From: Geodermatophilus obscurus | GTDB lineage: Bacteria; Actinomycetota; Actinomycetes; Mycobacteriales; Geodermatophilaceae | Length of the DNA: 64,000 nt | NCBI RefSeq assembly: GCF_900143215.1 | Contig: NZ_FRDM01000002.1 | Span: forward strand, 62,001-126,000 | Reading direction: 5' to 3' | Part shown: positions 20,464 through 31,990 of the stretch, piece by piece | Layout of the letters: every line of letters starts with the position of its first letter | How positions within the stretch are numbered: the first letter of the stretch is position 1 | The notes under the pieces: model-generated | The model's database searches: none | What the model was told of the DNA's origin: nothing | The model's input: only the letters and a program-made list of their open reading frames with translations | Program-made: the position numbers and the translations under genes

Positions 20464-22431
20464 TCACCGGCCACGCGGGTCGGTCCAGCGCGGAACGGGA
20501 ACGGCGGCCGCCTGGCGCCGCCGGCGGTGGGCGGCCATGCGCACCGGGGCGTCGGCGGTGCCGTAGCCGTCGTAGCCGCCCAGGCGCTGCACCACCTCGA
20601 AGAAGACCCGGTCGCCGAGCACCTCGGTGGCCAGGTGCAGGTAGCCGCCGGCGCCGTCCTCCTCGTACATGAGGTCGTGCTCCCGGATCGCGGCCAGCAC
20701 CTCGGCGGGCAGGTCGAAGCGCGCCTCGAGGTCGTCGGCGTAGTTGTCCGGCAGCGGCAGCAGCGGCGCCCCGGCCGCGCGCAGCGCCGCGGCGGTGGCG
20801 ACCAGGTCGTCGGTGGCCAGGGCGACGTACTGCGGCTCGGGCACACCGGGCGCCCAGCCACCGCGGCGCAGCGTCGCGGCCGACAGCGCCAGCCGCACGG
20901 AGCGGTCCGGGTCGGTGACCGCGCGGGTGCGGACCAGCCCGAACGGCGCGGCCAGCTCGGTGACCTCCTGCGACTCCAGGCCGAGCACGGCGCGGTAGAA
21001 CAGCCCCGCCTCGTCGAAGGAGTCGAACGGCTGGGTCAGCCCCACGTGGTCGACGCCGGTGATCCCCGCACCCGGCCCCGCCTGCTGCCCGGTGGGCAGG
21101 AAGTCGGCGGGCCAGCCGTCGGGAACGGTGCGGGTGAAGAAGACCTGGGTACCGTCGGGCGCGGCCACAGCCGACAGCTCCGCCTCCGCGGCGCCGCGGG
21201 TGCGGGGCAGGACCGGGGCGCTCATCGCCTCGGCGCGCGCGGCCGAGCGGCCCGGGTCGGCGCTCTCCAGGCCGAGCGCGACGACCGAGGCGACCCCGGT
21301 GGCGGCCGGGCGGACGACGTCGGCCCGATTGTCGTAGGCGTTGAGCAGCACCCGGGCGTGGTTCTGCTCCCACAGCTGCACCGGCTTGGAGCGGTGCTGC
21401 CCGGTGTGGGTGAAGCCGAGCGCGGCGAGCACCTCGGCGGCCCGCAGCCCGGACACCCCGTCGACGCCGAGCTCGGTGAACGACCAGCCCGACAGCGCCG
21501 GCGCGGCCGGGGGCGGGATCAGGCCGGACGCCGGTTCGCGCAGCGCGAGCGCCTCCTCCAGCCACTGCAGCGAGCGCATCGCGTCGACCGCCGTGCGGGC
21601 CGGGTCGGCCTGCCGGTAGACGTCGTTGAAGACCTCCAGCGACAGCGGCCCGGCGTAGCCGGTGGCGAGCACGGCGGCGACGAAGCCGGGCAGGTCGAAG
21701 CTGCCCTGCCCGGGGAAGAGGCGGTGGTGGCGGCTCCACTGCAGGACGTCCATGGCCAGTCGCGGCGCGTCGGCCAGCTGCAGGAAGAACAGCTTCTCCC
21801 CGGGGACGTCGGCGAAGCCGGCCGGGTCCCCGCCGCGGGAGAGCACGTGGAAGCTGTCCAGGCACAGCCCGAGGGCGGGGGAGCCCGCGCGCCGGACGGC
21901 GTCCCACGACCGCTCCCAGGTCGAGACGTGCCGGCCCCAGGCCAGCGCCTCGTAGGCGATCCGCAGACCGCGGTCCCCGGCGCGGGCGGCGGCGGTGGCC
22001 AGTTGCCCGGCCAGCCGGTCGGCGTCGTCGACGGCGTCCGGCGCGACCGAGGAGCAGACCAGCACGGTGTCGACGCCGAGCTGTGCCATCACGTCGAACT
22101 TGTGCTCGGCCCGGCGCAGGTTGCGGGCGAAGCGGTCGTCGTCGGTGGAGTCCAGGTCGCGGAAGGGCTGGTAGAGGTCGATGGACAGATCCAGGTCCGC
22201 GCAGCGGGCGGCCAGCTCGGCCGGGGACCAGGGCGAGGCGACCAGGTCGGGCTCGAAGACCTCGATGCCGTCGAACCCGGCGGAGGCCGCCGCGGCGATC
22301 TTGTCCTCGAGCGTGCCGGAGAGGCAGACGGTCGCGATGGCCCGGCGGCAGTGCCCACGTCCCGTGGCCCCCTGCAGGGTCCCGCCACGAGCCTTCGAGT
22401 GGTGGGGGGGACGAGGTCCGCTACTGGACAC
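20464..22431 (-). CDS. quiC: 3-dehydroshikimate dehydratase (sugar-phosphate-isomerase-like / HPPD-like fusion)
   Basis: This protein of about 655 residues makes protocatechuate from 3-dehydroshikimate. The N-terminal xylose-isomerase-like TIM barrel keeps the metal-binding set: AYEALAWG, CLDSFHVL, FLQLADAP and LSLEVFND. The C-terminal half is a vicinal-oxygen-chelate domain like 4-hydroxyphenylpyruvate dioxygenase, with VDHVGLTQP and FFEVVQRLGGYDGYG. At the second HPPD metal position Tyr535 (PQYVALATDD) replaces His, so dioxygenase activity is unlikely. Family-like sequence begins at RRAIATVCLSGTLEDK (~22345), but no ATG/GTG/TTG is in frame there. The nearest is GTG 22431, overlapping the aroE-like stop, and the stretch between is a dispersed palindrome. 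Confidence 0.87.
   Translation of the reverse strand: MSSSGPRPPHHSKARGGTLQGATGRGHCRRAIATVCLSGTLEDKIAAAASAGFDGIEVFEPDLVASPWSPAELAARCADLDLSIDLYQPFRDLDSTDDDRFARNLRRAEHKFDVMAQLGVDTVLVCSSVAPDAVDDADRLAGQLATAAARAGDRGLRIAYEALAWGRHVSTWERSWDAVRRAGSPALGLCLDSFHVLSRGGDPAGFADVPGEKLFFLQLADAPRLAMDVLQWSRHHRLFPGQGSFDLPGFVAAVLATGYAGPLSLEVFNDVYRQADPARTAVDAMRSLQWLEEALALREPASGLIPPPAAPALSGWSFTELGVDGVSGLRAAEVLAALGFTHTGQHRSKPVQLWEQNHARVLLNAYDNRADVVRPAATGVASVVALGLESADPGRSAARAEAMSAPVLPRTRGAAEAELSAVAAPDGTQVFFTRTVPDGWPADFLPTGQQAGPGAGITGVDHVGLTQPFDSFDEAGLFYRAVLGLESQEVTELAAPFGLVRTRAVTDPDRSVRLALSAATLRRGGWAPGVPEPQYVALATDDLVATAAALRAAGAPLLPLPDNYADDLEARFDLPAEVLAAIREHDLMYEEDGAGGYLHLATEVLGDRVFFEVVQRLGGYDGYGTADAPVRMAAHRRRRQAAAVPVPRWTDPRGR
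22366..22419. repeat. Dispersed palindromic element, copy 2
   Basis: This 54-bp element, on the minus strand from GGACCTCG to ACCCTGCAGGGGGCC, shares the CCTGCAGGG outer arm and the ACTCG...GCTCG loop of the copy at 3860. It lies between the shikimate dehydrogenase stop and the conserved beginning of the dehydratase, exactly where the original start codon would be expected. Confidence 0.7.
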
Positions 22432-23299
22432 GGACGTCGGAGACCAGCGTGGTGAAGTGGGCCAGCATCCGTTCGGCGTCGGGCTCGACGCCGGTGAACA
22501 GCCGGAAGGCGTCGACGGCCTGGAACACCGCCATGCCGCCACCGTCGAGCACCCGGCAGCCCAGCTCCCGGGCGGTGCGCACCAGCGCGGTCTCCAGCGG
22601 CCGGTAGACGATGTCGGCCACCCACAGCCCGGGGCGCAGCAGGTCGGCGTCCAGTGGCAGCCCGGGGTGGGCGGCCATGCCGGTGGGGGTGGCGTGCACC
22701 AGCCCGTCGGCGCGTTCCAGCGCCGCCGGTAGCGCGCCGAGGTCGCCGCCCTCGGCGCGGTCGGCGCCGAAGCGCCCGCCCAGCGAGTCGGCGAGCTCAC
22801 CGGCCCGCCGGCCGTCCACGTCGAGAACGGTCAGCCGGCGGGTGCCGAGGGTGAGCAGCGCGTGCGCGACCGCTGCCCCGGCGCCGCCGGCGCCGAGCAG
22901 CACCACCCGGTCCAGCGGGGCCTCGGGCAGGCCCCGGTCGAAGGCCCGGGCGAAGCCGGACCAGTCGGTGTTGTGCCCGACCGCCCGGCCGTCGCGGAGG
23001 ACGACGGTGTTCACCGCGCCGAGGGCGGCGGCGTCGGGGGAGAGCTCGTCGAGGTGCGGGATGACGAGCTGCTTGCAGGGGTGGGTGACGTTGAGCCCGT
23101 CGTAGCCGGCCAGCCGCGCGGCGGCGAGGATCTCGCCGATCGCCGATGCCGGCCTCTGCAGCCGGTCGAGGTCCAGGCGCCGGTAGAGGTAGCGCAGGCC
23201 CAGCTGGTCGGCCTCGCGCTCGTGCAGCGGTGGGGTCAGCGATGGGCCGATGCCGCTGCCGACCAGACCGACCAGGAATTCCTGCGCGCCGTCCGTCAC
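22421..23299 (-). CDS. Shikimate/quinate dehydrogenase (AroE/QsuD type)
   Basis: This 292-residue protein has the N-terminal substrate domain LVGSGIGPSLTPPLHEREA, the catalytic Lys/Asp surroundings GLNVTHPCKQLVIP and GHNTDWSGF, and a Rossmann motif LLGAGGAGAAVAHAL. The variant GIGPSLTP...HE resembles Corynebacterium QsuD, a catabolic quinate/shikimate dehydrogenase, rather than biosynthetic AroE. It sits with 3-dehydroshikimate dehydratase, a ShiA-like transporter and a TetR regulator, so it probably feeds quinate or shikimate into the protocatechuate route. The GTG start follows AGGGGG on the minus strand. Its promoter region is shared with the divergent transporter and carries two operators. 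Confidence 0.9.
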   Translation of the reverse strand: MTDGAQEFLVGLVGSGIGPSLTPPLHEREADQLGLRYLYRRLDLDRLQRPASAIGEILAAARLAGYDGLNVTHPCKQLVIPHLDELSPDAAALGAVNTVVLRDGRAVGHNTDWSGFARAFDRGLPEAPLDRVVLLGAGGAGAAVAHALLTLGTRRLTVLDVDGRRAGELADSLGGRFGADRAEGGDLGALPAALERADGLVHATPTGMAAHPGLPLDADLLRPGLWVADIVYRPLETALVRTARELGCRVLDGGGMAVFQAVDAFRLFTGVEPDAERMLAHFTTLVSDVRVQ

Positions 23300-23316
23300 G
23301 GGACCGCCCCCTCTTA

Positions 23317-23332
23317 TGTACCAACTGGTGAG
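23317..23332. promoter_or_regulatory. Operator-like site 1 (quinate/shikimate intergenic region)
   Basis: TGTACCAACTGGTGAG matches the second site at 23431 in the TGTACCAA half and closely in the other half. It is a conspicuous AT-rich island 17 bases upstream of the dehydrogenase start. Confidence 0.65.
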
Positions 23333-23430
23333 TTGTTGTGCAGCAGACCACATCCGGCCGCCGAGCGCCAGCCGTTGCCGGTGGATCACGGCTGTCCGCG
23401 AGCCGGGGGTTGTGCTCTCCGCCACGCTAA

Positions 23431-23446
23431 TGTACCAATTAGTTCA
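23431..23446. promoter_or_regulatory. Operator-like site 2 (quinate/shikimate intergenic region)
   Basis: TGTACCAATTAGTTCA fits a near-palindrome TGWACYAATTRGTWCA, a typical TetR-size operator. It lies 95 bases before the transporter ATG. The TetR gene at 25020 is the obvious candidate binder. Confidence 0.7.
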
Positions 23447-23541
23447 TTGCGGACGTGGTGCCGGTCACCGCGCTCGCTCTCCGCACCGAGCACCGCCGTC
23501 CCGCGCCCACCGGCGCACCCCCTTCCCTCTCAGGAGGACCG

Positions 23542-24930
23542 ATGCGCGACGCAGTGGCCGAGCCCGGCTCGCACGAGCCCAGCGAGTTCAAGAAGACGCC
23601 CAAGAAGGCCGCGGCCAGCGGCTGGATGGGCAGCGCGCTGGAGTACTACGACTTCTTCATCTACGCCCAGGCCGCCGCCCTGGTGTTCCCGACGCTCTTC
23701 TTCCCGGAGTCCGACCCGCAGATCGGCATCATCATCTCGCTGGCCACCTTCGGGGTGGGCTACGTCGCCCGGCCGATCGGCGCGTTCGTCCTGGGCCACT
23801 GGGGTGACACCCGCGGCCGCAAGAACGTGCTGGTGCTCTGCATGCTGCTGATGGGCGTGTCCACGTTCCTCGTCGCGCTGCTGCCCACGTACCAGCAGGT
23901 CGGCCTGCTGGCCCCGGCGCTGCTGGTGGTGCTGCGGCTGGTGCAGGGCTTCGCCGTGGGCGGGGAGATCTCCGGCGCCAGCGCGATGATCGTCGAGCAC
24001 GCCCCCTTCGGCCGGCGCGGCTACTACGCCAGCTACACCCTGCAGGGCGTGCAGGCCGGGCAGATCCTCGCCGCCGCGGTGTTCCTGCCGCTGGCGGCGA
24101 TCCTGCCCGAGGAGGCGTTCCAGTCCTGGGGCTGGCGGATCCCGTTCCTGCTGTCCGCCCTCGTGGTGGTCGCCGGCGTCATCATCCGGCGCCGGGTCGA
24201 CGAGACGCCGGTCTTCCAGGAGGAGGCCGTGCACGGCGAGGTGCCCAAGGCGCCGATCGTCCAGGCGGTCCGGGAGAGCGGTACGGACATGCTCCGGGTG
24301 GTCTGCATGGCGCTGATGAACGCCGTCCCGGTGGCGACCACCGTGTTCGGCGCCACCTACGCCACGCAGGAGGCGTACGGCATCGAGTTCAGCGCCGCGA
24401 CCTACCTGTGGATCTCCGTGGTGGGCAACGCGGTCGCCGTGCTGCTGATCCCCTACGTCGGCAACCTGTCCGACCGCATCGGCCGGCGGCCCTGCATCAT
24501 CGTCGGCGCGCTGGGGTCGACGGCGCTGTCCTTCGCCTACCTCTACGCGATCAGCCAGGGCTCCGTGGTCTGGGCCTTCGTCTTCGCGATCCTGATGTGG
24601 GGCATCGTCTACCAGGGCTACAACGCGGTCTTCCCGGCCTTCTACCAGGAGCTCTTCCCGACCCGGACCCGCGTCACCGCCTTCGCGGTCTCGCAGAACC
24701 TGGGCACGATGATCACGGCGTTCCTGCCCACCCTGTACGCGATCATCGCCCCTGGCGACGCCAACGTGCCGCTGATCGTCGGCGGCATCACCTTCGGCAT
24801 CGGGATCATCGCGGCGACGGCCGCCTGGTCGGCCCGGGAGACCCACCGGGTGCACATGGACGACCTGGGCCGCGACGACGCCCCGGTGGTGCCGCGCGAG
24901 GAGTACGAGCGCATCCGCGCCTCGCGCTGA
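23542..24930 (+). CDS. MFS metabolite:H+ symporter, ShiA-like
   Basis: This 462-residue protein of the metabolite:proton symporter family has ~12 membrane segments. It shows GSALEYYDFFIYAQAAAL at the start, the loop 2-3 motif GHWGDTRGRKNVL, GFAVGGEISGASAMIVEHAP and GNLSDRIGRRPCI. ShiA-like members import shikimate and related hydroxy-acids, consistent with the flanking dehydrogenase, dehydratase and TetR genes. ATG 23542 has CAGGAGG 5 bases upstream. A strong hairpin (24944-24977) follows, so the TetR gene is probably a separate unit. Confidence 0.9.
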   Translation: MRDAVAEPGSHEPSEFKKTPKKAAASGWMGSALEYYDFFIYAQAAALVFPTLFFPESDPQIGIIISLATFGVGYVARPIGAFVLGHWGDTRGRKNVLVLCMLLMGVSTFLVALLPTYQQVGLLAPALLVVLRLVQGFAVGGEISGASAMIVEHAPFGRRGYYASYTLQGVQAGQILAAAVFLPLAAILPEEAFQSWGWRIPFLLSALVVVAGVIIRRRVDETPVFQEEAVHGEVPKAPIVQAVRESGTDMLRVVCMALMNAVPVATTVFGATYATQEAYGIEFSAATYLWISVVGNAVAVLLIPYVGNLSDRIGRRPCIIVGALGSTALSFAYLYAISQGSVVWAFVFAILMWGIVYQGYNAVFPAFYQELFPTRTRVTAFAVSQNLGTMITAFLPTLYAIIAPGDANVPLIVGGITFGIGIIAATAAWSARETHRVHMDDLGRDDAPVVPREEYERIRASR

Positions 24931-25803: not shown

Positions 25804-26151
25804 TCAGTGCAGGCGGGACTGCCAGTCGGCCGGCACCCGGCCGCGCGGGCCCGGTGCCGGCTGGTCCAGCGGGTGGTGGGCGGGCGGCGCGAGCTCGGGG
25901 CCGGGGACGACGTCCCCGCGGGCGAAGTCCCAGAACCAGCTCTCCCCGGGCTCGTAGCTGCGGATCACCGGGTGCCCGGTCTCGGCGGCGTGCCGGCGGG
26001 CGTGCTGTGAGGGGGAGGAGTCGCAGCAGCCGACGTGGCCGCAGGCGGCACACCGGCGCAGGTGGAACCACCACCCGCCCGTGGCCTCGCACTCCAGGCA
26101 GCCCGCGCCGCTCGGCGGCACGGACGGGTCGATCGCAGCGGCAGCGTCCAC
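25804..26151 (-). CDS. UBP-type zinc finger protein
   Basis: This protein of 115 residues is mostly one ZnF-UBP domain: CLECEATGGWWFHLRRC, AACGHVGCCDSSPSQHA, RRHAAETGHPVIRSYEPG and ESWFWDF. The paired CxxC motifs and three histidines that bind zinc are present. In eukaryotes this fold binds the free C-terminus of ubiquitin; in bacteria its ligand is unknown. GTG 26151 is preferred to GTG 26160 because it is 7 bases after TACCGT, giving a leaderless start. It is divergent from the thioredoxin-like gene and lies near the redox fusion and histidine kinase. Confidence 0.88.
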   Translation of the reverse strand: MDAAAAIDPSVPPSGAGCLECEATGGWWFHLRRCAACGHVGCCDSSPSQHARRHAAETGHPVIRSYEPGESWFWDFARGDVVPGPELAPPAHHPLDQPAPGPRGRVPADWQSRLH

Positions 26152-26158
26152 GGCCGTC

Positions 26159-26164
26159 ACGGTA
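26159..26164 (-). promoter_or_regulatory. -10 hexamer for the UBP zinc finger gene
   Basis: TACCGT on the minus strand, 7 bases before GTG 26151. Confidence 0.5.
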
Positions 26165-26238
26165 GGGACGGCGCCCGCTCCCCGGAAGCCGGTGCGCGGC
26201 CGGCGGGGCACACTCGGTCCGGGGGGACGGAGGTCAGC

Positions 26239-26607
26239 ATGGGGACGGTCAGCCTCTCGGGGGAGGACTTCGCAGCGGCGACGCAGGCCGCGGGCATCGT
26301 GCTGGTCGACTTCCGGGACGCGGGGTCCGGCTCGAGCCGGGCCTTCGCGCAGGTCTTCGACGCCGCCGCGCACCGCCACCCGGACCTGCGCTTCACGACC
26401 GTCGACCTCCGCGCCGAGCCGGGGCTGGCCGCGGCGGTCGGGGTGCAGCGGGCGCCGAGCCTCATGGTCTTCCGCGACGGCGTGCCGGTGTTCGCCGAGC
26501 CGGGCTGGCTGCCCGAGGACTCCGTCGAGCTGCTCATCGCCACCGTCCGCGGGCTCGACATGGTGGCGGTGCGCGAGACCTTCCCGGAGCCGGTCCACCG
26601 CGGCTGA
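26239..26607 (+). CDS. Thioredoxin-fold protein lacking the CxxC motif
   Basis: This 122-residue protein has the thioredoxin order: IVLVDFRDAGSGSSRAFAQ, then LRFTTVDLRAEPGLAAAVGV, then RAPSLMVFRDGVPVF with the cis-proline Pro in RAPS. Where thioredoxin has WCGPC this protein reads GSGSS, so both redox cysteines are serine and disulfide exchange is impossible. It may bind or sense instead. ATG 26239 has GGAGGT 4 bases upstream. It lies between the UBP zinc finger and a response-regulator/thioredoxin-reductase fusion that also lacks its CxxC, which suggests a shared signalling role. Confidence 0.85.
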   Translation: MGTVSLSGEDFAAATQAAGIVLVDFRDAGSGSSRAFAQVFDAAAHRHPDLRFTTVDLRAEPGLAAAVGVQRAPSLMVFRDGVPVFAEPGWLPEDSVELLIATVRGLDMVAVRETFPEPVHRG

Positions 26608-26644
26608 GCCGCCGCGAGGCTGTCGCGCCGCAGCTACACCGGGC

Positions 26645-26650
26645 TAGCGT
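26645..26650 (+). promoter_or_regulatory. Candidate -10 for the response-regulator/reductase gene
   Basis: TAGCGT, 70 bases upstream of ATG 26720, in the gap after the thioredoxin-like gene. Confidence 0.35.
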
Positions 26651-26719
26651 GGCCGGCACCCGGCAACGACGCCGTCCTCCACACCTCATCGGTCCGGCAG
26701 GGCCGGACAGGAGGCCGCC

Positions 26720-28378
26720 ATGGGCCGACCCGTGCTGCTCACCGTCGACGACGACCCGCAGGTCTCCCGCGCCGTCGCCCGTGACCTGCGCCGGCACTAC
26801 GGCGAGCACTACCGGGTGCTGCGCGCCGGCTCCGGCGCCGAGGCCCTCGAGGCGCTCCGGGAGCTCAAGCTGCGCGGCGACCCGGTGGCGGTGCTGCTGG
26901 CCGACCACCGGATGCCGGAGATGAACGGCATCCAGTTCCTCGAGCGGGCCATGGACCTGGTCCCGCGGGCCCGCCGCGCGCTGCTCACCGCCTACGCCGA
27001 CACCGACGCCGCCATCGCGGCGATCAACGACGTCGACGTCGACGCCTACCTGCTCAAGCCCTGGGATCCGCCCGACGAGAAGCTCTACCCCACGGTCGAC
27101 GCCATGCTGACCGCCTGGCACGAGACCCCCGACCCGGAGGTGCACGGCGTCAAGCTGGTCGGTCACCGCTGGTCGGCGCCGTCCTTCCGCGCCCGTGACC
27201 TGCTGGCCCGCAACGCCGTCCCGTACCGCTGGTTCAGCGCCGACGAGCCGGACGGCCGGCGGATCCTCGCCGCGGCCGGGGCCGGCCCGGACGACGTCCC
27301 GGTCGTCGTCACCGCCGACGCGCAGGTGCTCAAGCACCCGGGCGAGGCCGAGCTGGCCGCCGTGGTCGGGCTGGCCGTCGACCCGCGGGAGGAGTTCTAC
27401 GACCTGGTGGTCGTCGGCGGCGGGCCGGCCGGGCTCGGCGCCGCCGTGTACGGCGCGTCCGAGGGGCTGCGCACCGTCCTGGTCGAGCGGGAGGCCACCG
27501 GCGGGCAGGCCGGGCAGAGCAGCCGGATCGAGAACTACCTCGGCTTCCCCGACGGGGTCTCCGGTGGGCAGCTGGCCGACCGCGCCCGCCGCCAGGCCGT
27601 GAAGTTCGGCACCGAGCTGCTGCTGGCCCGCGACGTGGTGGCGCTCGAGGCGCACGGACCCAAACGGGTGCTCCGCCTCGACGACGGCCGCGGCATCGCC
27701 GCGCACGCCGTCGTCCTGGCCACCGGCGTCTCCTACCGCAGCCTCGGCGTGGACGGCGTCGACGACCTCACCGGCCGCGGCGTCTACTACGGCTCGGCGA
27801 TGACCGAGGCGGCGGAGTGCGCCGACAGCGACGTCTACGTCGTGGGCGGGGCCAACTCGGCGGGCCAGGCGGCGGTGTTCTTCTCCCGCTACGCCCGCTC
27901 GGTGTGCCTGCTGGTCCGGGGGGCGTCGCTGGAGGCGTCGATGTCGGCCTACCTGGTCGAGCAGATCGCCGGCATCGGGTCGATCTCCGTGCGCACCTGC
28001 ACCACCGTGGCCGGCGCACAGGGCGACGGGCACCTCGAGGCGGTCACCGTCGAGGACGCGCGGACCCGCGAGCGGGAGACGCTGCCGGCCAGCCACCTGT
28101 TCGTCTTCATCGGCGGCGCGCCGCGCACCGGCTGGCTCGACGGCGCGGTCGTCCGCGACGAGCGCGGGTTCATCCCCACCGGCCCGGCGCTGCTCCGCGA
28201 GGGGCGCCGTCCCGCCGGCTGGGACCTGGACCGCGACCCGTACCTGCTGGAGACCAGCCTGCCCGGCGTGTTCGTCGCCGGGGACGTGCGGGCGGACTCG
28301 GTGAAGCGGGTCGCCTCGGCCGTCGGCGAGGGCGCGATGGCGGTCACCCTCGTGCACCGCTACCTGGGGGAACGGTGA
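26720..28378 (+). CDS. Response regulator fused to a thioredoxin-reductase-like flavoprotein
   Basis: A 552-residue fusion. The receiver domain (~1-125) has the acidic pair VDDDP, the phospho-acceptor Asp62 in LLADHRMPEMNG and a conserved Lys in LLKPWDPP. A thioredoxin-like linker (~145-215) follows. The reductase part has GGGPAG at 233-238, GGQAGQSSRIENYLGFP for FAD, VVGGANSAGQAA for NADPH and VFVAGDVRADSVKRVASAVG at the end. At the usual CATC site it reads YGSAM (357-361), so the redox disulfide is missing. It may be a phosphorylation-controlled flavin sensor or NADPH oxidase. ATG 26720 has AGGAGG. The kinase gene overlaps its stop (GTGA). Confidence 0.9.
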   Translation: MGRPVLLTVDDDPQVSRAVARDLRRHYGEHYRVLRAGSGAEALEALRELKLRGDPVAVLLADHRMPEMNGIQFLERAMDLVPRARRALLTAYADTDAAIAAINDVDVDAYLLKPWDPPDEKLYPTVDAMLTAWHETPDPEVHGVKLVGHRWSAPSFRARDLLARNAVPYRWFSADEPDGRRILAAAGAGPDDVPVVVTADAQVLKHPGEAELAAVVGLAVDPREEFYDLVVVGGGPAGLGAAVYGASEGLRTVLVEREATGGQAGQSSRIENYLGFPDGVSGGQLADRARRQAVKFGTELLLARDVVALEAHGPKRVLRLDDGRGIAAHAVVLATGVSYRSLGVDGVDDLTGRGVYYGSAMTEAAECADSDVYVVGGANSAGQAAVFFSRYARSVCLLVRGASLEASMSAYLVEQIAGIGSISVRTCTTVAGAQGDGHLEAVTVEDARTRERETLPASHLFVFIGGAPRTGWLDGAVVRDERGFIPTGPALLREGRRPAGWDLDRDPYLLETSLPGVFVAGDVRADSVKRVASAVGEGAMAVTLVHRYLGER

Positions 28379-29829
28379 CGACGGCGGCCGAGCGGCTCGC
28401 GCCGGCCGAGCTGCGCGGGCTGTTCCTCTTCGCCGACCTGGACGACGGGCAGCTGGCCTGGGTCGCCGACCACGCCGTCGTCGTCGGGTACCCCGCCGGC
28501 ACGGAGGTGTCGGTCGAGGGGGAGCCGGCCCGGTGCTTCTCGGTGCTCCTCGAGGGGACGCTCGCCATGTCCCGCCGGGTCGGCGGCAGCGAGGTCGAGA
28601 CCGTGCGGACGTCGCACCGCGGCGTGTACTCCGGTGCGGTGCAGTTCTACGTCGGCGAGCGGGTCGACCAGCGCTACCCGGCGACGGTCCGTGCGGTGAC
28701 CGACTGCCGCTTCCTCGAGCTGCCCGCAGCCGAGTTCGCCGCACAGTTCCGGCGCTGGTACCCGATGGCGGTGCACCTGCTGGAGGGCATGTTCATCGGC
28801 CAGCGGAACGCCGCGGAGCTGGTGGGGCAGCGCGAGCGGCTGCTCGCCCTCGGCAAGCTGACCGCCGGGCTCACCCACGAGCTGAACAACCCGGCCGCGG
28901 CCGCGTCGCGGGCGGCCGCCGCGCTGCGGGAGCGCTTCGCCGGGATGCGGCACAAGCTGGCCCTGCTCTCGGAGGGCCGGCTCGACGGCGCGGTGCTGCG
29001 CGCGCTCACCGGGCTGCAGGAGGAGCTCGTCGCCCGCGTGGGCACCGCCCCGGAGCTCCCCGCGCTGGAGCGGTCCGACCGCGAGGACGAGCTCGGCGAC
29101 TGGCTGGACGACCGCGCCGTGGGCGGCGCGTACGAGCTGGCCGGGATCTTCGTCGGCGCGGGCCTGGGCCCGGCGGACCTGCAGCGGGTCGCCGACGCCG
29201 TGGCGCCGGACGACCTGGAGCCCGCGCTGCGCTGGCTGGCCTACGCGGTGGAGACCGAGTCGCTGCTGAGCGAGATCGCCGACAGCACGGGCCGCATCTC
29301 CGGCCTGGTCGAGGCCGCCCGCCAGTACTCCCAGCTCGACCGGGCCCCGCACCAGCCCACCGACCTGCACGCCGGGCTGGACGCCACTCTGGTCATGCTC
29401 AGCGCCAAGACGCCACCGGGCGTCCGGGTGGTCAGGGACTACGACCGGTCGCTGCCGCCGGTGCCCGGCTTCCCCGGGGAGCTCAACCAGGTGTGGACCA
29501 ACCTGGTCGTCAACGCGCTGGACGCGATGACCGGAGAGGGCAGGGCGGGGGAGGGGACGCTCACCCTGCGCACCGCCCGGGACGGCGACTGCGCGCTGGT
29601 GGAGGTCGCCGACACCGGCCCGGGCATCCCCGAGGAGCTGCGGCAGCGGGTGTTCGAGCCGTTCTTCACGACCAAGCCGGTCGGCCAGGGCACCGGTCTG
29701 GGCCTGGACGTCTCCTACCGCGTCGTCGTCACCCGGCACGGCGGGGACCTGCGGGTGAGTTCCCGCCCGGGGGACACCCGGTTCCAGGTGCGCCTCCCGC
29801 TGACCGAGGCAGCCGCCGTCCCCGGTTAG
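28375..29829 (+). CDS. Cyclic-nucleotide-binding-domain histidine kinase
   Basis: This 484-residue soluble protein has a cNMP/CRP-like sensor domain (~10-135, with [20 protein letters not shown]), then a dimerisation helix with phospho-acceptor His168 in [16 protein letters not shown], and an HATPase domain (~370-480) with [31 protein letters not shown] and [10 protein letters not shown]. The GTG start overlaps the stop of the receiver/reductase fusion, so that receiver is the likely phosphorylation target. A CRP-like cavity together with a reductase partner suggests the signal is a small ligand or the redox state; the ligand is not known. Confidence 0.9.
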
Positions 29830-29844
29830 GCGGGACCGGCCGGC

Positions 29845-30309
29845 TCAGTCCGCCGTCAGCGCCAGCAGGACCCCGGTGGTCAGCCCGACGGTGGCGTGGC
29901 CGACCAGGCCGCGGGCGTGGCTGACCAGCGGGTACTGCCGGGCCGTGGGCAGCGCGGTGCCCTCGTCGACCACCAGCCAGGCGGCCGCACCGACGGCCAG
30001 CCCGGCGGTGACCGGGTGCTTCCCGCGCCGGGCGAGCAGGGCCGCCAGGACGCCGTAGGTGGTGCCGAGCGTCCGGTGCACGGCCAGCCCCACCCGGCCG
30101 GCGGCCGCGTCGTCGAGCTCCCGCCCACGGGCCGCGCCCAGCTGGCGGCCGAGCTGCACCAGCATGCCGCCGGGCGTGATCTCCTCCTCGCGCCGCCGCG
30201 AGGCCTCGCTCTGGCGGGCGTGGAAGGCACCGGTGACGGCGTCCATCGTGCGGCTGGCGACGTAGCCGGCCAGCGCACCGGTTCCGAGCGTGCGGCGGAG
30301 TCCCGACAT
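29845..30309 (-). CDS. Small membrane protein of unknown function
   Basis: This 154-residue protein has hydrophobic segments near residues 8-25, 78-92, 100-115 and 135-152, and an amphipathic charged stretch HARQSEASRRREEEI between the first two. The composition resembles DUF1440/YagU-like inner-membrane proteins, but I do not recognise a diagnostic motif. It is convergent with the histidine kinase and divergent from the DHA2 exporter. Confidence 0.65.
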   Translation of the reverse strand: MSGLRRTLGTGALAGYVASRTMDAVTGAFHARQSEASRRREEEITPGGMLVQLGRQLGAARGRELDDAAAGRVGLAVHRTLGTTYGVLAALLARRGKHPVTAGLAVGAAAWLVVDEGTALPTARQYPLVSHARGLVGHATVGLTTGVLLALTAD

Positions 30310-30457
30310 GGCCTCTCCCAGGGAGCGCAGGTCCTGGCAGTGTCCGGCCGGGGTTCCCGGGCCGGGAAGTGCCGGAGGTCATCCGCTCCCGCGTGCCGGA
30401 CGGGCGGCACGGGTAGCCCCCGGTGCGTCCCTCCCGCACCACCCTGGAGACCGCCCC

Positions 30458-31990
30458 GTGACGGCTCGGCCGATCGTCCACGACACACCTCCCGAGGCCG
30501 ACGCCGACCGGTACGAGCCCGATCCCCGCCGCTGGCGGGCGCTGTCGGTCACCCTCGTCGCCGGCTTCATGAGCCTGCTCGACGTCAGCATCGTGTCGGT
30601 GGCGCTGCCGACGCTGCAGCGCGACCTCGGGGCTTCCGCGGCGGCGGTCCAGTGGGTGGTCTCCGGCTACGCGCTCACCTTCGCGCTGATGCTCGTCCCG
30701 GCCGGCCGGCTGGGTGACGCCCTCGGCCGGCGGCGGATGTTCCTGGTCGGGCTGGCCGGCTTCGTGCTGTGCAGCGCGGCAGCAGGGGCGGCGCCGTCCG
30801 TGGGTCTGCTCATCGCCGCGCGGCTGGCGCAGGGGCTGGCCGCCGGGGTCCTCGCGCCGCAGAATTCCGGGCTCATCCAGCAGCTGTTCCGCGGCGGTGA
30901 GCGCGGCCGGGCGTTCGGTCTGTTCGGCGCGGTCGTCGGGGTGTCCACCGCGGTGGGCCCGATCGTCGGCGGGCTGCTGCTGCAGGTGGCCGACTGGCGG
31001 TGGATCTTCTACGTCAACGTGCCGATCGGCGTCGTCGCGTTCGTCCTCGCCTGGCGGCTGCTGCCCCGGAGCGGAGCGGGCGGGCGCGGGCACATCGACG
31101 TCGGCGGGGTGCTGCTGCTCGGCGGCGGGGCGCTGGCCCTGCTGCTCCCGCTGGTGCAGGCGGAGGCCGGCGGCCTGTCCCGGCTGTGGTGGCTCTTCCC
31201 GGTCGGCGCGCTCGTGATGGGCGGGTTCGTCGGCTGGGAGCGGCGGGTGGTCCGGCGCGGCGGGGAGCCGGTGTTCGACCCGCGGCTGGTCACCGAGACC
31301 CGCGGCTACGGCCTCGGGGCGGCGCTGGGCACCGTCTACTTCGTCGGCTTCAGCGGCATCTGGCTGGTCTTCGCGCTGTTCTTCCAGACCGGCCTGGGGC
31401 TCACGCCGCTGCAGTCCGGGCTGGCGGTCACCCCGTTCGCGCTGGGCTCCGCGACCGCGGCCGTGGTGGCCGGGCGGCTGGTCGAGCGCGTCGGGCGGCT
31501 GCTCACCGTCGTCGGCCTGGTCGGGGTGCTGATCGGTCTGGGGGCGACGGTCGCCGTCCTGCTGCTCGTGCCGGCCGACGCCGTCCCCTGGGCGGTGGCC
31601 CCCGCGTTGCTGGTGGGCGGGCTCGGCGGCGGTTTCGTCATCTCGCCGAACATCACCATGACGCTGCGCGACGTGCCGGTGCGGATGGCCGGCGCGGCCG
31701 GGGGCGGGCTGCAGACCGCGCAGCGCTTCGGCGCGGTCATCGGGACGGCGGCGCTGCCCGGTCTGTTCTACGTCGTCCTCGGCGCCACCGCCCAGGACTA
31801 CCCGGCCGCAGCGGCCGCGGGCCTGGTCGTCGCCCTGGCCGGGATCGCCGCGGCCCTCGTGCTCGCCGTCGTCGACCTGCGCCGCACCCGGCGGGAGGAG
31901 GCCGCCGACCGCGAGGACCGCGACCGCGAGGACCACCACCACGAGGACCGCGACGCCGGCCACGGCCACGGGCACGCCGCCCACTCCTGA
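30458..31990 (+). CDS. DHA2-family MFS multidrug exporter with metal-binding-like tail
   Basis: This 510-residue exporter of the EmrB/QacA group is predicted to have 14 membrane segments. It has the motifs LDVSIVSVALPTLQRDL (motif D1), GRLGDALGRRRMF (motif A) and FGAVVGVSTAVGPIVGG (motif C, antiporter). The last ~25 residues are cytoplasmic and unusually rich in His, Asp and Glu (REDHHHEDRDAGHGHGHAAH), which could bind a divalent metal. GTG 30458 has GGAG upstream. A perfect hairpin follows and separates it from the convergent dctA. Confidence 0.88.
   Translation: MTARPIVHDTPPEADADRYEPDPRRWRALSVTLVAGFMSLLDVSIVSVALPTLQRDLGASAAAVQWVVSGYALTFALMLVPAGRLGDALGRRRMFLVGLAGFVLCSAAAGAAPSVGLLIAARLAQGLAAGVLAPQNSGLIQQLFRGGERGRAFGLFGAVVGVSTAVGPIVGGLLLQVADWRWIFYVNVPIGVVAFVLAWRLLPRSGAGGRGHIDVGGVLLLGGGALALLLPLVQAEAGGLSRLWWLFPVGALVMGGFVGWERRVVRRGGEPVFDPRLVTETRGYGLGAALGTVYFVGFSGIWLVFALFFQTGLGLTPLQSGLAVTPFALGSATAAVVAGRLVERVGRLLTVVGLVGVLIGLGATVAVLLLVPADAVPWAVAPALLVGGLGGGFVISPNITMTLRDVPVRMAGAAGGGLQTAQRFGAVIGTAALPGLFYVVLGATAQDYPAAAAAGLVVALAGIAAALVLAVVDLRRTRREEAADREDRDREDHHHEDRDAGHGHGHAAHS

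Follow-up and report, generated by a model that had tools for sequence, protein, structure and literature searches.

A thioredoxin reductase-like flavoprotein lacking its disulfide centre as the proposed output of a two-component system in Geodermatophilus obscurus

In this work, we analyzed four adjacent genes of Geodermatophilus obscurus, located at positions 25804 to 29829 of a stretch of 64,000 nucleotides (contig NZ_FRDM01000002.1, positions 62,001 to 126,000; hereafter, the window). They encode a UBP-type zinc finger protein, a thioredoxin-fold protein, a receiver fused to a thioredoxin reductase (TrxR)-like flavoprotein and a histidine kinase with a CRP fold. We consider the chances about even that this locus forms a two-component system with a flavoprotein switch of TrxR descent as its output, set by phosphorylation and acting through the UBP finger. 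In favor of this reading, (i) the kinase gene adjoins the flavoprotein gene in 79 of 80 named loci (80 of the 142 relatives from a scan of species genomes), (ii) the reductase CxxC is absent from all 196 aligned flavoproteins, and (iii) in a sample of 197 Actinomycetia genomes, zf-UBP proteins are encoded in 101 of the 104 with the flavoprotein vs 24 of the 93 without it. A preliminary description of the locus had proposed a CxxC-less reductase working in signalling within a conserved neighbourhood, and these figures support that proposal.

Gene layout and the kinase-flavoprotein pair

Pfam scores confirmed the families and positions first given for the four genes. The UBP-type zinc finger protein (118 residues, 25804..26160; zf-UBP, PF02148, 54.5 bits, cut-off 22.7) is encoded on the minus strand and diverges from its three companions, which all lie on the plus strand. 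These encode the thioredoxin-fold protein, with SGSS replacing CGPC (122 residues, 26239..26607; Thioredoxin, 32.0 bits, cut-off 23.5); the flavoprotein (552 residues, 26720..28378; Response_reg, 51.5 bits, cut-off 30.2; Pyr_redox_2, 106.4 bits, cut-off 26.1); and the kinase (484 residues, 28375..29829; cNMP_binding, 41.6 bits, cut-off 27.5; HATPase_c, 90.2 bits, cut-off 26.4; HisKA, 20.7 bits, under its cut-off of 26.9), with His168 in a HELNNP box. Taken together, Pfam, alignment, profile and model describe the flavoprotein as a receiver, a glutaredoxin/mycoredoxin-like domain and a TrxR-like body binding flavin adenine dinucleotide (FAD). Alignment also bore out GSGSS in place of WCGPC in the thioredoxin, YGSAM in place of CATC in the flavoprotein and a phosphorylatable Asp62 in the receiver, and the last two genes do overlap, by a shared GTGA (28375-28378). 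Among the best 25 of 85 NCBIfam matches no dedicated family was seen for the flavoprotein, and the UBP finger had no NCBIfam match. None of the four proteins was matched by PADLOC, and a role in anti-phage defence was rejected on that ground.

The single named locus lacking an adjoining kinase gene (L104) stops at a contig end, with a weak kinase match directly downstream. Judging by record titles, the pair occurs in Actinobacteria, Chloroflexales, Thermomicrobiales, Ktedonobacteria, Leptolyngbya (cyanobacteria) and Rhodothermia. In the Actinomycetia sample, the kinase family (E <= 1e-40) was found in 85 of the 104 flavoprotein-bearing genomes (E <= 1e-90) and in 0 of the 93 others. The H-box His is present in all 123 aligned kinases (HELNNP in 116, HEINNP in 6, HELGNP in 1), and the N, G1 and G2 ATP boxes are conserved (GTGLGL in 117/123). 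On the receiver side, D10, D11, D62, T90 and K113 are invariant in the 38 aligned sequences of the window's type, and D62 is retained in 79 of the 80 named loci, the remaining one being cut off. These data argue strongly for an old, conserved two-component pair and, because the genes are near-obligate, overlapping partners with intact residues, suggest phosphotransfer from the kinase to Asp62.

The kinase had been credited with a CRP-like pocket. The CRP fold is indeed present, but the usual ligand residues are missing: the cyclic-nucleotide contacts, which we take to be the Glu of GEL and the Arg of PRxAT, are replaced in the window by GVYSGA and QRYPATVRA, and a G-x-[YFW]-x-G-[AG] motif is found in 117 of the 123 aligned kinases.

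The same genome holds further members of the family. A second receiver-flavoprotein and kinase pair lies on the same contig, about 225 kb away (L114 7818-10846), with D62 intact and His at position 367; no UBP gene was found in the stretch fetched. Two paralogous flavoproteins (L115 7079-9865; L116 7529-9227, spread across two reading frames) have no kinase found nearby and carry receivers devoid of the phospho-acceptor Asp: one has Ala in place of D62, the other His where an Asp is expected. Their sequences fit a loss of receiver function where the kinase is not adjacent, within one clade. Elsewhere, a related kinase of the HELNNP type on a Nostoc plasmid is preceded by a receiver-like domain, as judged by eye (L197 10287-11678), and in Caballeronia two kinases with a receiver-like domain in front stand on either side of the flavoprotein gene (L196 4484-9062).

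Loss of thiol centres in the flavoprotein and the thioredoxin

The 196-row flavoprotein alignment retains some genes twice, as two collections were joined. Removed from it were loci that repeat the window's own gene or hold only part of it (L001, L002, L112, L117, L206, insofar as they occurred), as well as frames matching less than the whole of model positions 240-500. In this alignment, the SAMT of YGSAMT falls opposite the CATC of TrxB, the canonical reductase encoded in the same genome, position 359 is Ala in 103 rows, Ser in 92 and Gly in 1, and the CxxC loss is, by sequence, family-wide. Restored CxxC motifs in close relatives were thus not seen in the flavoprotein, nor in any of the 16 thioredoxin frames of the window's genus. 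A further domain, absent from the preliminary description, lies at residues ~140-223, which no Pfam model reaches in the window's protein. A 20-row profile of this region best matched 2lqo ("putative glutaredoxin Rv3198.1", E 4.5e-5), which we take to be Mycoredoxin-1, and Pfam Glutaredoxin matched 7 of the 20 relatives (best 1.4e-4) but not the window's own flavoprotein. The domain shares with 2lqo the Trp before the active site and differs from it in reading WSxxS opposite WCGYC (WSAPS in the window); a middle-domain CxxC is found in 0 of 195 sequences and Ser152 is retained in 169 of 195. By alignment, the thiol centres lost in this locus are three, not two.

Nevertheless, the label "redox-dead" given to the group is overstated, because it overlooks Cys367, five residues past the lost CxxC, which is retained in 150 of the 196 flavoproteins and in 78 of the 80 named loci and may be a single-thiol switch. 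Oxidation of NADPH, also suggested at first, conflicts with the loss of the 2'-phosphate motif HRRxxxR, where the window reads VRGASLEAS vs HRREELRAS in the genome's own TrxB, and of which a single Arg, R400, is left (196/196). NADPH use is doubtful because of this loss; NADPH oxidation is possible, yet less likely than NADH oxidation or no turnover. In the accessible portions of the literature, GGGxxAxE and VxxxHRRDxxRA are tied to NADPH use, and NADPH-independent relatives are described, one of them in the flavin-reducing form (PMC5627308).

The FAD-binding body is conserved, with the pyrophosphate loop (GGxNSAGQ-type) retained. The protein scores 210 bits against the TrxB equivalog TIGR01292, under its cut-off of 343.45, and resembles TrxB in fold, FAD-binding motifs and extent of the body, differing in the loss of CxxC and HRRxxxR and in the added receiver and glutaredoxin-like domains. 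A canonical TrxB/TrxA pair is encoded separately in the Geodermatophilus genome, its TrxB (G000:C96:15396) scoring 401 bits. From its sequence, the flavoprotein looks like a disulfide reductase no longer, despite annotation that sometimes names it so, and a thioredoxin-TrxR redox relay was rejected on account of the loss of all three CxxC sites and the canonical pair elsewhere. The predicted model (mean predicted local distance difference test score 85.9) superposes better on a TrxR in its flavin-reducing form (5mh4; template modelling (TM) score 0.93, root-mean-square deviation (rmsd) 2.3) than on the flavin-oxidising form of that enzyme (5mjk; 0.62, 8.0). It was predicted with cofactors left out, and the top structure matches by E-value superpose less well; this resemblance may be taken as weak support.

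Several known proteins are close to this one. The domain combination is that of the receiver-thioredoxin reductase regulators described as a "Mycobacterium-like combination" (PMC5847659); the accessible text of that report names the combination alone, with no mention of CxxC loss, Cys367, kinase pairing or a UBP link. The protein annotated as "cyclic nucleotide-binding domain-containing thioredoxin-disulfide reductase" has a CxxC-less body of the same family, a UBP neighbour and, in its larger clade, Cys at 367. It differs in that a cyclic nucleotide-binding (cNMP) domain replaces the receiver, a dedicated kinase was not seen in its stretches and it often lies near ClpB and a TrxC-like thioredoxin; judged by sequence, it lacks the motif for the activity that its name implies. 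Already known, as far as the portions consulted go, are therefore the receiver-TrxR combination (PMC5847659) and annotation names for the UBP finger and the cNMP form. According to the accessible parts of PMC5627308 and PMC9025218, T. acidophilum TrxR, DvTRi, FFTR and DDOR share the TrxR fold with an altered or absent NADPH motif, as in the flavoprotein. T. acidophilum TrxR was crystallised in the flavin-reducing form, and its structure 3cty fits our model (TM 0.91, rmsd 2.4). FFTR and DDOR keep CxxC and DvTRi swaps disulfides with thioredoxin, whereas the window's family is devoid of that centre.

The thioredoxin has a different history. GSGSS occupies its WCGPC site, and SGSS is found in all 16 reading frames of its type (~10 genomes), with CxxC in none. 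Among the stretches fetched, the CxxC-less thioredoxin occurs only in the window's genus; the neighbourhood conserved in other genomes is that of kinase and UBP finger. A linked loss of both disulfide centres, as one event, was consequently rejected: the flavoprotein loss is family-wide and the thioredoxin loss local. Its median ratio of nonsynonymous to synonymous substitution rates (dN/dS) is 0.375 (range 0.118-0.610; 36 non-independent pairs from nine loci), with neighbours' medians of 0.218-0.268, which points to purifying selection, somewhat relaxed relative to the neighbours; pseudogene decay was rejected on this median. For the SGSS thioredoxin, the likeliest role is that of a local, lineage-limited binding accessory. 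Separately, the thioredoxin in a run of ClpB and cNMP-flavoprotein genes (L179 2906-3625) reads WYGPC, one active-site Cys being gone, and by its sequence this is a second, partial loss at the thioredoxin site; no UBP gene was found there.

The UBP finger across flavoprotein architectures

The Cys/His ligands of the UBP finger and its CCDSS motif are largely conserved in the alignment, and the C-terminal tail (PELAPP...PGPRGRVPADW) is common to UBPs of its kind. Its nearest solved chain is 2ida, with remote similarity to the USP5 and USP49 fingers; CCDSS aligns opposite CGRY of USP49 and in a different register vs USP5. Readers of the ubiquitin C-terminus presumably use the Arg of CGR(Y/R) and an aromatic pocket.

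Of the 150 UBP places listed, 37 start within <6 kb of a flavoprotein start; these belong to 31 of the 92 genomes that have both the flavoprotein and a UBP on the list. A UBP gene lies at <=4.5 kb in 33 of the 80 named loci, downstream on the same strand in 19, upstream on the opposite strand in 12 and upstream on the same strand in 2. Because the arrangement varies and the nearness persists, we argue for a functional tie. In Streptomyces fungicidicus, flavoprotein, kinase and UBP genes follow in this order with 4-base overlaps, and in Agrobacterium and Rhizobium the UBP gene adjoins cNMP-type flavoproteins. On plasmids (60 of 87 UBP records considered, many of them near-copies), a hand count gave 37 of 60 with a listed flavoprotein place at <=250 bp, mostly in near-identical rhizobia, and 11 more with a flavoprotein or FAD-oxidoreductase gene annotated as touching or next to the UBP gene. 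An Arthrobacter plasmid (L201) has a close UBP gene and no flavoprotein in the annotated stretch, whose gene table is incomplete. The titles and abstracts searched held no report of a UBP finger-flavoprotein link, a statement limited to those titles and abstracts.

We tabulated 191 flavoprotein reading frames for architecture. Besides the window's receiver-plus-kinase group, these comprise a 21-row clade with degenerate receivers and no kinase found nearby, a larger and a smaller cNMP-fused group, and a pair with neither domain; the UBP gene is seen beside the flavoprotein gene in every architecture, including receivers that have no kinase. Next to the larger cNMP clade lies a thioredoxin resembling TrxC, whose active site reads WCGPC in 11 of 12 frames and WYGPC in that of L179. 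ClpB is a neighbour in 11 of 18 distinct places, several of the remaining stretches being short; in this ClpB-linked clade, the cNMP domain is fused to the flavoprotein. A Rhodococcus plasmid (L194 1-7420) carries a dnaK-grpE-J-cbpM-clpB-trxA-UBP-flavoprotein-DUF1931 run. Na_H_Exchanger proteins with a C-terminal UBP finger are encoded just upstream of degenerate-receiver flavoproteins (L172 2028-4019; L173 2011-3966; L174 5809-7758) and beside the flavoprotein gene in two other loci (L046 3963-6071; L135 2601-4094), and an antiporter free of a UBP finger lies upstream of the flavoprotein in L055. Cys367 as a mark of UBP linkage was rejected: L172-L174 and L203 have UBP and no Cys, many members have Cys with no UBP in range, and the tree test was not significant. 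In the window, the cluster is preceded by shikimate dehydrogenase-like, dehydroshikimate dehydratase/dioxygenase-like and MFS transporter genes (20464-24930, from the open reading frame list), probably for quinate/shikimate use, and followed by a DHA2-like MFS transporter gene (30290-31990, judged by eye). Such a transporter gene likewise lies directly 3' of the flavoprotein/kinase pair in Deinococcus aetherius (L198 8956-10587).

Proposed mechanism, rival explanations and significance

In the mechanism that we propose, the CRP-fold kinase would sense an intracellular ligand, probably not through the canonical cAMP contacts, and would phosphorylate Asp62 in the flavoprotein's receiver domain. 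Phosphorylation would then determine the conformation of the TrxR body or the state of its flavin and dinucleotide. The body itself should bind FAD and, in place of NADPH, probably NADH or some other dinucleotide. The state so set would be read by protein contact, with the UBP finger as partner or as adaptor towards clients, Cys367 possibly acting as a single-thiol switch and the SGSS thioredoxin as a local binding accessory. Since cNMP-fused relatives carry the sensor on the flavoprotein itself, the pairing of kinase and receiver resembles the same circuit divided over two proteins. More tentatively, the locus may be one form of a portable bacterial module for redox signalling made of a CxxC-less TrxR-like flavoprotein and a UBP finger, in which the state is set by a receiver, a fused CRP-fold sensor or neither, and the finger, reading the flavoprotein and not ubiquitin, passes that state to clients such as Na+/H+ antiporters or systems of the ClpB disaggregase.

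Several points weigh against the proposed switch and, above all, its UBP arm. The window's UBP gene, being divergent, is not co-transcribed with the other three, and nearness holds in only 31 of 92 genomes (among the places listed) and 33 of 80 named loci; among the 60 plasmid records, the best flavoprotein place is far off in 2 and 10 could not be judged. Over 31 loci, distances correlate at r 0.72 for UBP and flavoprotein and at r 0.97 for kinase and flavoprotein, the UBP value becoming -0.30 with the kinase partialled out, and mirror-tree support for the UBP finger was not found. In a quick tree of 103 rows of <85% identity (one being canonical TrxB), with weak support on 41 of its 100 inner branches, the parsimony minimum is 14 changes for UBP nearness, 5 for kinase nearness and 10 for Cys367. 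Tests on independent pairs had 1 pair for kinase and intact receiver (supported branches), 1 for degenerate receiver and Cys loss and 5 for Cys367 and UBP, and none was significant. The genome counts come from related genomes with kinship left uncorrected, making Fisher values descriptive only, and in most rows scoring covered only 7 candidates per genome for the flavoprotein and 8 for the kinase, so that some absences may be misses.

Other explanations were weighed against this one. The flavoprotein might be a working enzyme under control by phosphorylation, whether an NAD(P)H oxidase, a diaphorase or a single-cysteine reductase/peroxidase, in which Cys367 or the bare flavin donates electrons to an acceptor; the NADPH oxidation suggested at first is one case of this. 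The conserved FAD-binding body with its pyrophosphate loop, the frequent retention of Cys367 and the WCGPC thioredoxins of cNMP/UBP operons are in line with this, but HRRxxxR, tied to NADPH use in the accessible part of PMC5627308, is lost but for R400, and Met or Leu replaces Cys367 in 18 of the 21 degenerate-receiver rows, with some kinase-linked members lacking it as well; we find this explanation rather doubtful. Slightly less probable still, and in our view unlikely, is a regulatory subunit of ion transport or proteostasis: the UBP finger would attach the flavoprotein to an antiporter, or to a target linked with ClpB, whose gating would follow the state of the dinucleotide and flavin. Such a flavoprotein has a precedent in KefF, an FMN protein genetically tied to the monovalent cation/proton antiporter KefC, although KefF is unrelated to the TrxR-like flavoprotein and the antiporter link runs here through the UBP finger, in only some relatives. 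The antiporter-UBP fusions, the antiporter of L055 and the ClpB neighbours speak for this possibility; however, antiporter neighbours are few (5 loci, plus L135), and neither an antiporter nor a ClpB gene was recognised by eye around the window's cluster in the open reading frame list. Far less probable than either is a place for the cluster in protein tagging, with the finger recognising the C-terminal end of Pup or another ubiquitin-like protein. The zf-UBP fold, its ligands and the remote similarity to USP5 and USP49 are what this has in its favor. Against it, CCDSS is common where USP49 has CGRY, we noticed neither ligase nor proteasome genes as neighbours in the annotated loci viewed, and the finger is widespread in records of Rhizobium, Agrobacterium and Deinococcus, which to our knowledge lack Pup.

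Genes for this flavoprotein are common in Actinomycetia, being found in 104 of 197 genomes, and are present in other phyla; some of the products are annotated as thioredoxin-disulfide reductases, even though the disulfide centre is absent from all 196 aligned. The parts are small, apparently soluble proteins, amenable to biochemistry. If the reading of the locus as a phosphorylation-set flavoprotein switch is true, the output of a two-component system would be a flavoprotein, giving bacteria a direct switch from phosphorylation to redox state, and the bacterial UBP finger would gain a ubiquitin-free role, as a zinc-finger partner that antiporters and ClpB operons have in common with the flavoprotein.

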